In this document: in pieces, positions 10,206-16,697 of the stretch
Layout of the letters: the number at the start of each line of letters is the position of its first letter
Position numbering within the stretch: the stretch's first letter is position 1
Origin: a virus
IMG/VR virus record: IMGVR_UViG_3300047386_000118
Coordinates: 1 to 29,107 of that record
Direction: 5' to 3' (one strand)
Length of the DNA: 29,107 nt
Made by a program: the position numbers and the translations under genes
Notes under the pieces: generated by a model
The model's input: the letters and a program-made list of their open reading frames with translations, nothing else
The model's database searches: none
Told to the model about the DNA's origin: nothing

Positions 10206-10241
10206 ACCCCCAATTTCATTTTGAATGCGGGGGTTTTTTTT
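10206..10241 (+). terminator. Intrinsic terminator ending the tail operon
   Basis: ACCCCC (10206-10211) pairs with GGGGGT (10229-10234); inside, TTCA and TGAA can pair further. Eight T residues follow (10234-10241). It separates the late tail genes from the early/replication block. Confidence 0.88.
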
Positions 10242-10274
10242 AAAATAAATTTTTTTATTTAAAAATAATTTTTG

Positions 10275-12277: not shown

Positions 12278-12664
12278 ATGGAAAAACACGACTTAATCAA
12301 AAAAAGAATCAATGAATTTTTGGACATTGATATTGACAAAAAAACAAGACAAAAGGAATTCGTTGAAGCGCGCATGATTTATTATTGGCTTTGTTTCTAC
12401 TTTACAAATATGAACTTGTCAAACATTGCAAAGACATTAAAAAAGAATCATGCAACGGTCATTCATGCGATTAAAAACTTTCCAATTTTTATGGACACCG
12501 ACAAAAAATTCAAGGAAAAATTCCTTGCAATTTATGAAACATTAAAAGAAGACGTTCAAAAAAAGACCGAACAAATGTCACTTCAGGAACTGACATTTCG
12601 GTACAATCAACTATTAATGGAAAACGGAAAGTTAAAAGAAACAATAAAAAATTTGCAAAATTAA
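12278..12664 (+). CDS. Stand-alone DnaA domain IV-like DNA-binding protein with coiled coil
   Basis: A 128-residue protein. Residues 30-70 resemble the DNA-binding domain IV of DnaA: a helix with EARMIYYWLCFYF, then MNLSNIAKTLKKNHATVIHAIKNF. N57-K66 (NHATVIHAIK) corresponds to the DnaA signature D/N-H-A/S-T-V-x-H-A. No AAA+ domain is present. The C-terminal 40 residues are a likely coiled coil (LQELTFRYNQLLMENGKLKETIKNL). Domain IV of DnaA binds DnaA boxes; a free version in a phage could mark the phage origin, compete for host DnaA boxes, or load host factors. It is packed between the exonuclease (2 nt) and a VRR-NUC nuclease (1 nt). Confidence 0.72.
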   Translation: MEKHDLIKKRINEFLDIDIDKKTRQKEFVEARMIYYWLCFYFTNMNLSNIAKTLKKNHATVIHAIKNFPIFMDTDKKFKEKFLAIYETLKEDVQKKTEQMSLQELTFRYNQLLMENGKLKETIKNLQN

Positions 12665-13349: not shown

Positions 13350-14291
13350 ATGAAATTCAACATGATATTCAAACCAAAGCGGTTTGATATATTCACACCC
13401 GTCCCGACTTCAATTTTTCGGATTCAAGGCATTTCCCTTGGGGCGGTTGGTTTGTATTGTTATTTGCTATCGCATGACAACGACAAGCCGGTGACCATTT
13501 CATTTTGTGCAAACAATTTTAAGGAAGGCAAAGATGCCATTCGCGCCCGGCTGAAGGAACTTGAAACCTTTGGTTTGGTTCGCCTTGAAACTGTAAAAAA
13601 TGAAGGTGTTTTTCGTGGGTATAACTATCATTTGATTGACCCCACCGCGTCGGAAAATCCGACACCCCGCGTTGGATTAGCCGCAACGGAAAATCCGACA
13701 CAAAGAAATATCTATAATGACAATATAAACTATAATGACAATATAAACTATAATGACAATATAAACTATAATGACAATATAGATAATATAAATAATATAA
13801 TAAATAAATATATTCCTCAAAATCCAAAAACGAAAGATTTTCCGCCGCATATTGAAAAAGCGTTTCCGCATTTTGTTGCATTGTTTCCAAAACGAAATCA
13901 ACCCAAAACCAAGGCGCAAAAACAAAAATGGTTGGATTGCCTTGATAAAATCGAACGCATTGACAAATACAACCTTCGCGAAGTTTATGAAGTTTGTAAG
14001 CAATTGCGTCAAGATGATTTTTGGCAAAACGTGTTTCTTAGCATTTTAAAGCTGCGTAACAACGACAAAAACGGCGTGAAGTATGTTGACCGCTTTATGG
14101 CGCAAAACGCGCTTAGAACGCGTCCTAATGCGTTCAAACGGGTTTCGGGACTTATTGACTTTGTAACGTATGAAGACAAAGGAAAAAAAATCGGGGCGAA
14201 AACAAACAATGGGAACTTGTATGACTATAATTTAAAACAAGTGCTTTCCGAAACTGAATACAACGAACTATTCAAATACTTATACAAATGA
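13350..14291 (+). CDS. Replication initiator-like protein carrying iterons in its gene
   Basis: A 313-residue protein (start at ATG 13350; a TTG 39 nt upstream lies within the previous gene and is less likely). Residues 12-100 form a winged-helix unit (VPTSIFRIQGISLGAVGLYCYLLSH, FCANNFKEGKDAIRARLKELETFGLVRLE, FRGYNYHLID), as in phage and plasmid initiators. Then comes a repetitive linker of NYNDNI units encoded by 18-bp DNA repeats, and a C-terminal helical domain (KNGVKYVDRFMAQ, ...LSETEYNELFKYLYK). The arrangement winged helix, iterons within the gene, and AT-rich DNA repeats the plan of lambda O. It likely binds these iterons to open the origin and recruits the primase-helicase encoded downstream. 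The stop overlaps the next gene by 4 bp. Confidence 0.8.
   Translation: MKFNMIFKPKRFDIFTPVPTSIFRIQGISLGAVGLYCYLLSHDNDKPVTISFCANNFKEGKDAIRARLKELETFGLVRLETVKNEGVFRGYNYHLIDPTASENPTPRVGLAATENPTQRNIYNDNINYNDNINYNDNINYNDNIDNINNIINKYIPQNPKTKDFPPHIEKAFPHFVALFPKRNQPKTKAQKQKWLDCLDKIERIDKYNLREVYEVCKQLRQDDFWQNVFLSILKLRNNDKNGVKYVDRFMAQNALRTRPNAFKRVSGLIDFVTYEDKGKKIGAKTNNGNLYDYNLKQVLSETEYNELFKYLYK
13713..13784 (+). repeat. Four 18-bp iterons, probable replication origin
   Basis: TATAATGACAATATAAAC occurs three times exactly in tandem (13713-13730, 13731-13748, 13749-13766) and a fourth time with two changes (13767-13784). The repeat keeps the reading frame and encodes NYNDNI units of the initiator. Four 18-bp iterons inside an initiator gene is the lambda origin plan. 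Confidence 0.88.
13785..13815. other. AT-rich stretch beside the iterons (candidate DNA unwinding element)
   Basis: From 13785 to 13813 the sequence is only A and T (AATATAAATAATATAATAAA and on). It directly follows the fourth iteron, on the same side as the AT-rich region of the lambda origin. It encodes the NINNIINKYI part of the initiator linker. Confidence 0.65.
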
Positions 14292-15014: not shown

Positions 15015-16697
15015 ATGATTGAAAAACTTGCAAACCTTGGAATAAATTTGAAGAATAGAACAAACGGGGAAATAAAAACAAAATGTCCCAAATGTTCACA
15101 CAACAGAAAAAACAAACACGACGAATCCTTGTCGGTTAACATTTCAACCGGACTTTACAATTGCCACAATTGCGGTTGGGCCGGCGGTGTAATGTTTCAA
15201 AAAAAATCGGAATACATAATTCCGGAAAAAGTGAACGCCGACGTGACTGAACGCGTATTGAAATGGTTTGACGGGCGCGGTATAACCGAACCGACCCTTG
15301 TTCATTGGCGCATTGGTGAATCACTTGAATACATGCCGCAAGTTGGTTCAAAGCGTCGTTGTATAAATTTCAACTACTTCCGGGACAATAAGATTGTGAA
15401 CGTCAAATTTCGTGACGGCGAAAAAAACTTCAAAATGACTTCCGGTGCTGAACTTATTTTTTACGGCATTGATAATATAAAAGAATCAAAAACATGTTAC
15501 ATTGTTGAAGGAGAAATGGACGCGCTTTCATTACATGAAGCCGGATTGTATTCGGTTTGTTCAGTTCCGAACGGCGCATCAAAAGGAAACGCCCGCCTTG
15601 ATTATTTGGACAACTGTTTTGAATACTTTAAAAACAAAACCGAAATCGTTCTTTGCACCGATAATGATGACGCCGGGTTGCAATTACGAAACGAACTTGC
15701 AAGGCGGTTTGGACAACACCGTTGCAAATACGTCGATTTTGGGGACTTTAAAGACGCCAACGAGGTATTGACTACAAAAGGTGCTGAAACGTTACGAAAC
15801 GTGATAAAAAGCGCGAAAAACTTTCCATTGGAAGGCGTGTTGAATGTCAATGATATTTGGGAAAACGTTTTGGCGTATAATGAAAAAGGCGTTCAGAATT
15901 ATTCAATCGGACTTGCGGAATCGGATTCGTTTTTTAAAATGTCATGGGGTGAATGGACAGTTGTGACCGGCGTTCCTAATTCAGGAAAGTCCGACATTGT
16001 TGACCAAATCTTTTGCAACGTTGCGACAAAATATGGATTCCGTTGCGCTATGTTTGCGCCGGAATCATTTCCTTACGAAGGGCATATAAAAAGGATTGCA
16101 AACAAACTGAACAACAAACTTTGCAACAATGATGACCTTGAAAATACAAAGGATTTCATTGAAGAACATTTTCATTGGATTCGGATTGACCTTGAGAATT
16201 TGACACTTAAAAACATATTGAATAAGTTCCGAGAACTTGTCTTTCAAAAAGGAATCAACGTTTTTTGCATTGACCCGTTTAACATGCTTGACCATTCGGC
16301 GCAAAGGGATTTTAGTTACATTGGAAAAATACTTTCCGAAATCACACAATTCGTTCAACAAACAAACACCCATTTGTTTTTGGTTGCGCACCCGCGAAAA
16401 ATTGAATCGGAAAATGGGGTGTATAAAAAGCCGACGTTGTATGACGTTTCGGGTTCCGCTGACTTTTTCAATAAAGCGTACAATGGTTTAATTGTTTACC
16501 GTTGCATTGGACAAAAGACAAGGTACAAATCCGACCTTGTGAAAATATACATTGAAAAAGTAAAGCGCAAGGAAAACGGTCAAATTGGTGATTTTGACGT
16601 TGCACCTGACTTTAATTCCGGCGGGGTTTACAAACCTATTGACAAAAATGACAAAGCGTTTGAAGTGATAACGGACAACACGAACATACCATTTTAA
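15015..16697 (+). CDS. Primase-helicase (T7 gp4-like)
   Basis: A 560-residue bifunctional replication enzyme. Zinc-binding primase part: CPKC (24/27) and CHNC (50/53). TOPRIM core: YIVEGEMDALSLHEAG with Glu165 and CTDNDDAGLQLRNEL with Asp216 and Asp218. DnaB-type helicase part: Walker A GVPNSGKS (319-326), Walker B INVFCIDPFNML with Asp420, and THLFLVAHPRK, the motif with the gamma-phosphate sensor. It unwinds the fork and primes the lagging strand. No DNA polymerase is encoded, so the host polymerase must be used. The start is the ATG in ACAATGATT; a three-codon reading frame (ATG AAA CAA TGA, 15007-15018) ends across this start. The acidic end NTNIPF recalls an SSB-type tip. Confidence 0.94.
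   Translation: MIEKLANLGINLKNRTNGEIKTKCPKCSHNRKNKHDESLSVNISTGLYNCHNCGWAGGVMFQKKSEYIIPEKVNADVTERVLKWFDGRGITEPTLVHWRIGESLEYMPQVGSKRRCINFNYFRDNKIVNVKFRDGEKNFKMTSGAELIFYGIDNIKESKTCYIVEGEMDALSLHEAGLYSVCSVPNGASKGNARLDYLDNCFEYFKNKTEIVLCTDNDDAGLQLRNELARRFGQHRCKYVDFGDFKDANEVLTTKGAETLRNVIKSAKNFPLEGVLNVNDIWENVLAYNEKGVQNYSIGLAESDSFFKMSWGEWTVVTGVPNSGKSDIVDQIFCNVATKYGFRCAMFAPESFPYEGHIKRIANKLNNKLCNNDDLENTKDFIEEHFHWIRIDLENLTLKNILNKFRELVFQKGINVFCIDPFNMLDHSAQRDFSYIGKILSEITQFVQQTNTHLFLVAHPRKIESENGVYKKPTLYDVSGSADFFNKAYNGLIVYRCIGQKTRYKSDLVKIYIEKVKRKENGQIGDFDVAPDFNSGGVYKPIDKNDKAFEVITDNTNIPF

Follow-up and report, generated by a model that had tools for sequence, protein, structure and literature searches.

The initiator gene and its replication module

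The window, by which we mean the whole stretch of DNA that was analysed, is a virus fragment of 29,107 bases with a siphophage-like gene order across it. The protein-coding features of its replication module that matter here are the following:

12278–12664, plus strand: small protein with a helix-turn-helix of the DnaA domain IV type (Bac_DnaA_C, 1.5e-12), in the same module as the initiator and present in all relatives covering that region
13350–14291, plus strand: putative replication initiator gene, 313 aa, with a winged helix (aa ~20–98), a disordered linker (aa ~101–161) and an O-like C-terminal domain
13524–13556, plus strand: predicted recognition helix EGKDAIRARLK (aa 59–69; helix 61–73 in the model), in which K61 and D62 are the positions that covary with the box sequence in homologues
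13929–14060, plus strand: segment of the C-terminal domain (aa 194–237), by sequence comparison homologous to lambda O aa 220–263 (DDFW..LS..KLR)
15015–16697, plus strand: primase-helicase (Toprim + DnaB-like; matched by phrog_239 at E 6e-90 and by Toprim and DnaB_C in Pfam), which is probably the partner loaded onto the origin

The first ~100 residues of the 313-aa protein are predicted to form a winged helix. In an AlphaFold model, pLDDT was 73–88 across most of this domain and <37 in the linker, i.e. the ~60 residues that house the boxes and 18-mers described below are predicted to be disordered. In PHROGs, the protein matched DnaD-like helicase loader and replication initiation families (1e-12 to 1e-8). 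Pfam gave a sub-threshold match to HTH_36 alone and none to RepA_N, and a structure search gave no match at E ≤ 0.001, the weak winged-helix matches being to primosome DnaB, RctB domain 1 and AbfR2. The PHROG matches, the synteny with the primase-helicase and the O-like C-terminal domain together indicate that the encoded protein is a replication initiator.

Close relatives of the initiator are encoded at 12 IMG/VR loci, and a protein search of public genome contigs returned no relative. Locus L002 was counted as the same phage, since a single base in 6,924 sets it apart from the window. Relatives that are long enough have in common the module exonuclease VIII – DnaA_C – VRR_NUC – initiator – primase-helicase – terminase. 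Within it, identity is 74–94% for the initiator and 63–66% for the DnaA_C-type protein of most relatives (82% for that of L011), whereas their module neighbours have diverged far less (85–99% identity in L003–L011); it looks as though the two DNA-binding proteins were diversifying in step.

A tandem 18-bp array in the linker

The DNA elements of the linker region are listed here, with a strand given for the array only:

13650–13662: box 1, perfect dyad TCGGA-AAA-TCCGA (TCGGAAAATCCGA), read as SENPT; proposed initiator-binding site and sole perfect copy in the window
13672–13684: box 2, degenerate (TTGGATTAGCCGC) and read in a different frame (VGLAA); weak, and belonging to repeat family D4
13686–13698: box 3, near-perfect dyad ACGGA-AAA-TCCGA (ACGGAAAATCCGA), read as TENPT; identified from the D4 repeat and the comparison of relatives
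13703–13815: AT-rich tract (A+T 87%), a candidate DNA-unwinding element; DNA stability is lowest here in the window and in the loci of the relatives tested
13713–13784, plus strand: four tandem 18-bp units (YNDNIN ×4 in the protein), the copy-variable part of the AT tract, from Tandem Repeats Finder and the comparison of relatives
13783–13814: A/T-only run of 32 bases, from the sequence

The original prediction had described four tandem 18-bp units, three of them exact, in the middle of a winged-helix initiator gene, in frame and forming the linker of the protein, and all of this was confirmed by Tandem Repeats Finder and the open reading frame. The program placed the array at 13712–13781 with a score of 140 (period 18, 3.9 copies, 100% match); no tandem array in the window is stronger, and this one is far above chance expectation. 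In register, TATAATGACAATATAAAC occurs three times, at 13713, 13731 and 13749, and the fourth unit at 13767, TATAATGACAATATAGAT, matches it at 16/18 positions; the array is in frame within the ORF 13350–14291. The A/T-only run predicted to follow the repeats is present, at 32 rather than about 29 bases.

When copies were counted at a match of at least 15/18, there were four in the window, three in L011, two in each of L004, L005 and L012, and one each in L003 and L007. L006 has two copies that are diverged and out of register, and L008 and L009 have none though the replication module is kept; L010 is likewise without repeats there. These copy changes in 18-bp steps look like slippage held in frame. 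The 18-mer is AT-rich, reaches a self-complementarity of at best 10/18 in any rotation and sits in one reading frame throughout, and a scan of IMG/VR contigs found it in tandem pairs in no phage outside the window's clade.

Dyad boxes upstream of the array

Directly upstream of the array are three imperfect 21-nt repeats (family D4; 13645–13665, 13667–13687 and 13681–13701), which were not part of the original prediction. They read CCGCGTCGGAAAATCCGACAC, CCGCGTTGGATTAGCCGCAAC and CCGCAACGGAAAATCCGACAC and contain the dyad TCGGAAAATCCGA, which is perfect in the first repeat, poor in the second and nearly perfect in the third; box 2 may be a half-site or nothing. Box 1 is unchanged, codons included, in every relative read at this place, the most distant of them with 74% protein identity, and box 3 decays to ACGGGAAATCCGA or ..ATA in L007–L010. 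The dyads, which are GC-richer than the 18-mers, are retained among the relatives and partly degenerate in the most diverged. Over aa 101–119, 1 of 12 conserved-residue codons varies, compared to 89 of 191 outside the linker and boxes (Fisher p 0.013); pairwise synonymous tests were each weak (p 0.03–0.19). Codon shuffling of the window gene alone produced two boxes in 2.8% and one perfect box in 9.4% of cases, so the case for the boxes leans on the relatives. This comparison points to repeated sites inside the gene that are conserved as DNA, and the dyads at 13650–13698 are likely to be sites for the initiator.

The AT tract is the least stable DNA of the locus

Another feature that the original prediction did not contain is that positions 13713–13812 are the least stable 100 bp in the whole 29-kb window. 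Its least stable 60, 80, 100 and 110 bp all fall in the AT tract, and in 7/7 relatives tested the least stable 60 bp (of 4.5–8.9 kb) lay at the matching place, whatever the number of 18-mers. An adjacent AT-rich region that would serve for unwinding, as in the lambda O plan, is present. The longest A/T-only run of the window (40 bases, at 10234–10273) is a direct repeat of 20 bp and separates the tail genes from the replication genes.

Boxes and recognition helix covary among homologues

Since an alignment of the whole winged-helix family showed no conserved stretch, we used a consensus winged-helix query, with which 80 loci were chosen by protein only, giving 68 unique genes. Their linkers contain repeated xENPT, xEKPT or VENQ-like units followed by an AT-rich, QLNTK-like tract. 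We counted 43 perfect 5+3+5 dyads in the 68 linkers, compared to 11.3 ± 3.2 after codon shuffling. The same comparison gave no excess in the winged-helix part (12 versus 11.1) and a smaller one downstream of the linker (26 versus 12.3); some of this smaller excess may come from the linkers of longer proteins. Sites resembling TCGGANNNTCCGA occurred 33 times in linkers and 0 times elsewhere in these genes (codon-shuffle mean 9.9, maximum 20). The least stable 50 bp of the gene lay in the linker in 62/68 homologues (32% expected by length) and was centred ~32 bp past the last box (median). Direct repeats in the AT tract were detected at p 0.05 in 30 of 64 homologues, some of the stretches still including boxes; as this is about half of them, it is common for boxes to have AT-rich repeats next to them, as they do in the window.

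The boxes of the homologues hold the form nnnGA-AAA-TCnnn, with arms that vary by clade (TCGGA, ACGGA, TTGGA, CAGGC, TAGGA, GTTGA, GTAGA and CTAGA). An acidic residue at position 4 of the recognition helix goes with GG in the arm (27/30 versus 3/14), and K/R at position 3 goes with CGG (17/22 versus 3/22). This covariation was noticed after the fact. Among protein-selected genes, with one gene kept per 75%-identity cluster (28 clusters), it reached p 0.002 for residue 4 and GG and p 0.01 for residue 3 and CGG; at 60% identity clustering (11 clusters) it was not significant. A partial Mantel test in which the rest of the domain was held constant gave r 0.17 (p 0.006). The window helix EGKDAIRARLK has K and D at the two positions and its boxes carry CGGA, matching the prediction of the rule. 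It is about an even call, in our judgement, whether, throughout a large family of phage initiators with a winged helix, the origin boxes are carried in the linker DNA of the initiator gene itself, in any frame, with helix residues 3 (K/R) and 4 (D/E) predicting the arm (CGG and GG, respectively). The covariation across the family is the more novel part of this work, the origin plan itself being of a known kind.

Dyads in distant phages and genomes

A pattern scan of IMG/VR that was blind to genes (two TCGGANNNTCCGA within 30 bp) returned 30 loci, and 12 of these lay in linkers of winged-helix initiator-like genes, several assignments being made by inspection because the profile score was weak. 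The 42 good sites in those 12 genes were distributed over frames 0, 1 and 2 as 21, 13 and 8. Depending on the frame, a site is translated as SENPT, VGKSD or SRKIR; in L047 all three follow one another, and in L055 too one dyad box is read in all three frames within a single gene. A box that is found in three frames is not explicable as a protein motif. In 11 of the 12 genes, the A+T content goes up in the 60 nt from the last site. We found no paper that prints the TCGGA dyad in such a role, in a literature search largely without subscription journals.

Dyad pairs also occur outside initiators, at 18 of the 30 viral loci and at ~24 of the 28 loci that a stricter pattern found in public bacterial genomes, where ~4 lie in initiator-like genes (L148, L150, L171 and probably L164). 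As most genomic loci are outside initiators, the TCGGA dyad is not exclusive to origins.

The settings of individual pairs were diverse. L160 (680–735) and L170 (7194–7249) have TCGGA dyad pairs directly upstream of similar XRE-type regulators of Lachnospiraceae, and these are probably operators. L036 (4939–6108) and L171 (3–317) encode initiators that look like RepA_N rather than the HTH_36 type, with TCGGA dyads in two frames placed right behind the DNA-binding domain. Six identical TCGGAAAATCCGA boxes with 33-bp spacing are present in an initiator-like gene of a GC-rich phage (L042, 9329–10657; VGKSDHS.SPL repeats). On Bacteroidales contigs (L154, L158, L166, L168 and L169) we saw paired TCGGAATTTCCGA / TCGGAAATTCCGA (~39–55 bp), apparently outside clear genes.

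Comparison with lambda O and plasmid initiators

In lambda, as in the window, the origin or its candidate lies in the middle of the initiator gene (gene O in lambda), and palindromic, GC-richer boxes are directly followed by an AT tract. The boxes differ: the window has two to three of the form TCGGA-N3-TCCGA, with centres 22 and 14 bp apart, whereas lambda has four of the TCCCTC type, 20–24 bp apart. Unlike that of lambda, the AT tract of the window holds a tandem 18-mer array. Run through the same scripts, the annotated lambda iterons fall in frames 0, 2, 2 and 1 and are followed by the lambda AT tract. Two iterons and the AT tract are enough for unwinding in lambda (PMC7466680).

The best family matches of the winged-helix half of the window initiator are of the DnaD-like/HTH_36 type rather than lambda O's own, and the N-terminal half of lambda O had no significant match to the window initiator. 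Profile comparison showed homology between the C-terminal domain of the window initiator and that of lambda O. Against a profile built from the clade, an Arthrobacter phage and phage phi18:3, lambda O reached 34.4 bits, compared to at most 8.3 among 500 shuffled decoys, and phrog_2514 matches both the window initiator and lambda O; BLASTP alone gave a weak match (E 0.004). Shared ancestry of at least this domain is therefore likely. The original prediction had left the choice between convergence and a very old shared plan, and of these the second is favoured and convergence is not. Among ten module proteins scanned in PHROGs (the window being a fragment), there was no match named as lambda P, and a primase-helicase is present instead.

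The Rep proteins of staphylococcal plasmids pSK41 (RepA_N) and pPR9/pUSA03 (HTH_36-type N-domain) resemble the window initiator in having a winged-helix N-domain, boxes in the linker DNA and a separate C-domain. They differ from it in that they serve plasmid replicons, have another box sequence and carry a DnaD-like, not an O-like, C-domain that recruits DnaG. pSK41 Rep binds four boxes mid-gene and its linker peptide is dispensable, and Rep of the pPR9 type, which has an HTH_36 domain, sustains a mini-replicon (PMC5703833). The pUSA03 rep gene (L144, 101–1060) has four 15-bp GTGTCAAAAGGACAC-type dyad boxes distributed over three frames, and AT-rich repeats of 15 bp (DFIDT) come after them; going by sequence, its anatomy is origin-like and the same as the window's. 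The DnaD-like/HTH_36 phage initiators (phrog_186, phrog_270, phrog_2514 and phrog_428) also have the domain order of the window initiator and, like it, a linker with repeats of the xENPT/xEKPT type and, after these, an AT-rich tract of the QLNTK type; their boxes form sequence classes by clade. None of the papers that we found describes an origin for this family.

A candidate replication origin inside the initiator gene

Anatomy and comparison support the originally predicted origin-like element inside the initiator gene, with AT-rich DNA adjoining it as in lambda O, and the site is very probably the replication origin of the phage. We infer binding, melting, helicase loading and origin activity as follows. 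The winged helix would bind the dyad boxes at 13650–13698 (two good, one degenerate) that are encoded in its own linker, and binding beside the AT tract (13703–13815) would strain and melt the tract. The 18-bp repeats would be part of the unwinding element, perhaps of its single-strand contacts, and would grow or shrink in 18-bp steps by slippage with the frame kept. The O-like C-terminal domain would then bring the replicative helicase, probably the phage's own primase-helicase 0.7 kb downstream. The whole model, with the origin inside the initiator gene, the initiator on the dyads and the AT tract unwound, 18-mers included, appears probable to us. A GC skew switch near 13.7 kb, which had been suggested as a check, gave no support, the skew being positive on both sides. 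DnaA boxes were rejected as origin marks (26 matches at one mismatch versus 35 expected).

The original prediction took the 18-mers themselves for iterons; on this reading, the initiator would bind them as in lambda, and their copy number would just vary among relatives. They are tandem, number four and adjoin an A/T-only run, and the number of iterons is variable in known phages (4 in lambda, 6 in Stx phages; PMC7466680), so varying copy number alone is insufficient against this reading. However, the count runs 4, 3, 2, 2, 2, 1, 1, 0 among relatives with the same module, and the absence of any copy from relatives that keep the rest of the module weighs against the 18-mers as iterons. Unlike the boxes of the homologues, they are AT-rich, hardly self-complementary and always in one frame; they form tandem pairs in no other IMG/VR phage, and dyads of the family type, which are kept instead, adjoin them. 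Given the copy number of 0–4, the composition, the missing symmetry and the single frame, we rejected this role for the 18-mers as improbable. Relatives with a conserved initiator and no repeats had been named as evidence against an origin here; such relatives exist as far as the 18-mers are concerned (L008–L010), but the dyads and the AT tract are still there.

It is also unlikely that the region is no origin at all but an Asn-rich disordered linker with a neutral minisatellite, its ENPT motifs conserved as protein. The linker is indeed disordered in the AlphaFold model, and even high-GC actinophages with a poor dyad are among the homologues in which ENPT/EKP-like peptides recur. Yet one DNA box yields SENPT, VGKSD or SRKIR depending on the frame, and in L047 and L055 a single gene has all three; the dyads exceed those of codon shuffles, the boxes covary with the helix, and in every locus tested DNA stability is lowest in the AT tract. 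The pairs flanking XRE-type regulator genes in some genomes (L160, L170) would suit boxes that form an operator, for transcription control by the initiator or another regulator, with the origin elsewhere. We consider this very unlikely, since the boxes of the window lie deep inside coding sequence and constantly beside the stability minimum, they covary with the initiator's own helix, and lambda O and pSK41 Rep provide a precedent for an origin role. Operator and origin roles are not exclusive, as binding could do both.

To our knowledge, replication origins are known by experiment in few phages and in hardly any of Bacteroidota. An origin in the initiator gene, with the dyads as binding sites, would correct the target for footprinting, as an experiment designed around the 18-mers might not reach the sites that are bound. 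If the model is true, the origins of the window phage and of many phages with DnaD-like/O-like initiators would be locatable from sequence alone, and the joint change of initiator and origin, which are the same DNA, would become testable. If the box/helix rule were true across the family, the origin position and specificity of thousands of phages would be readable from one gene.
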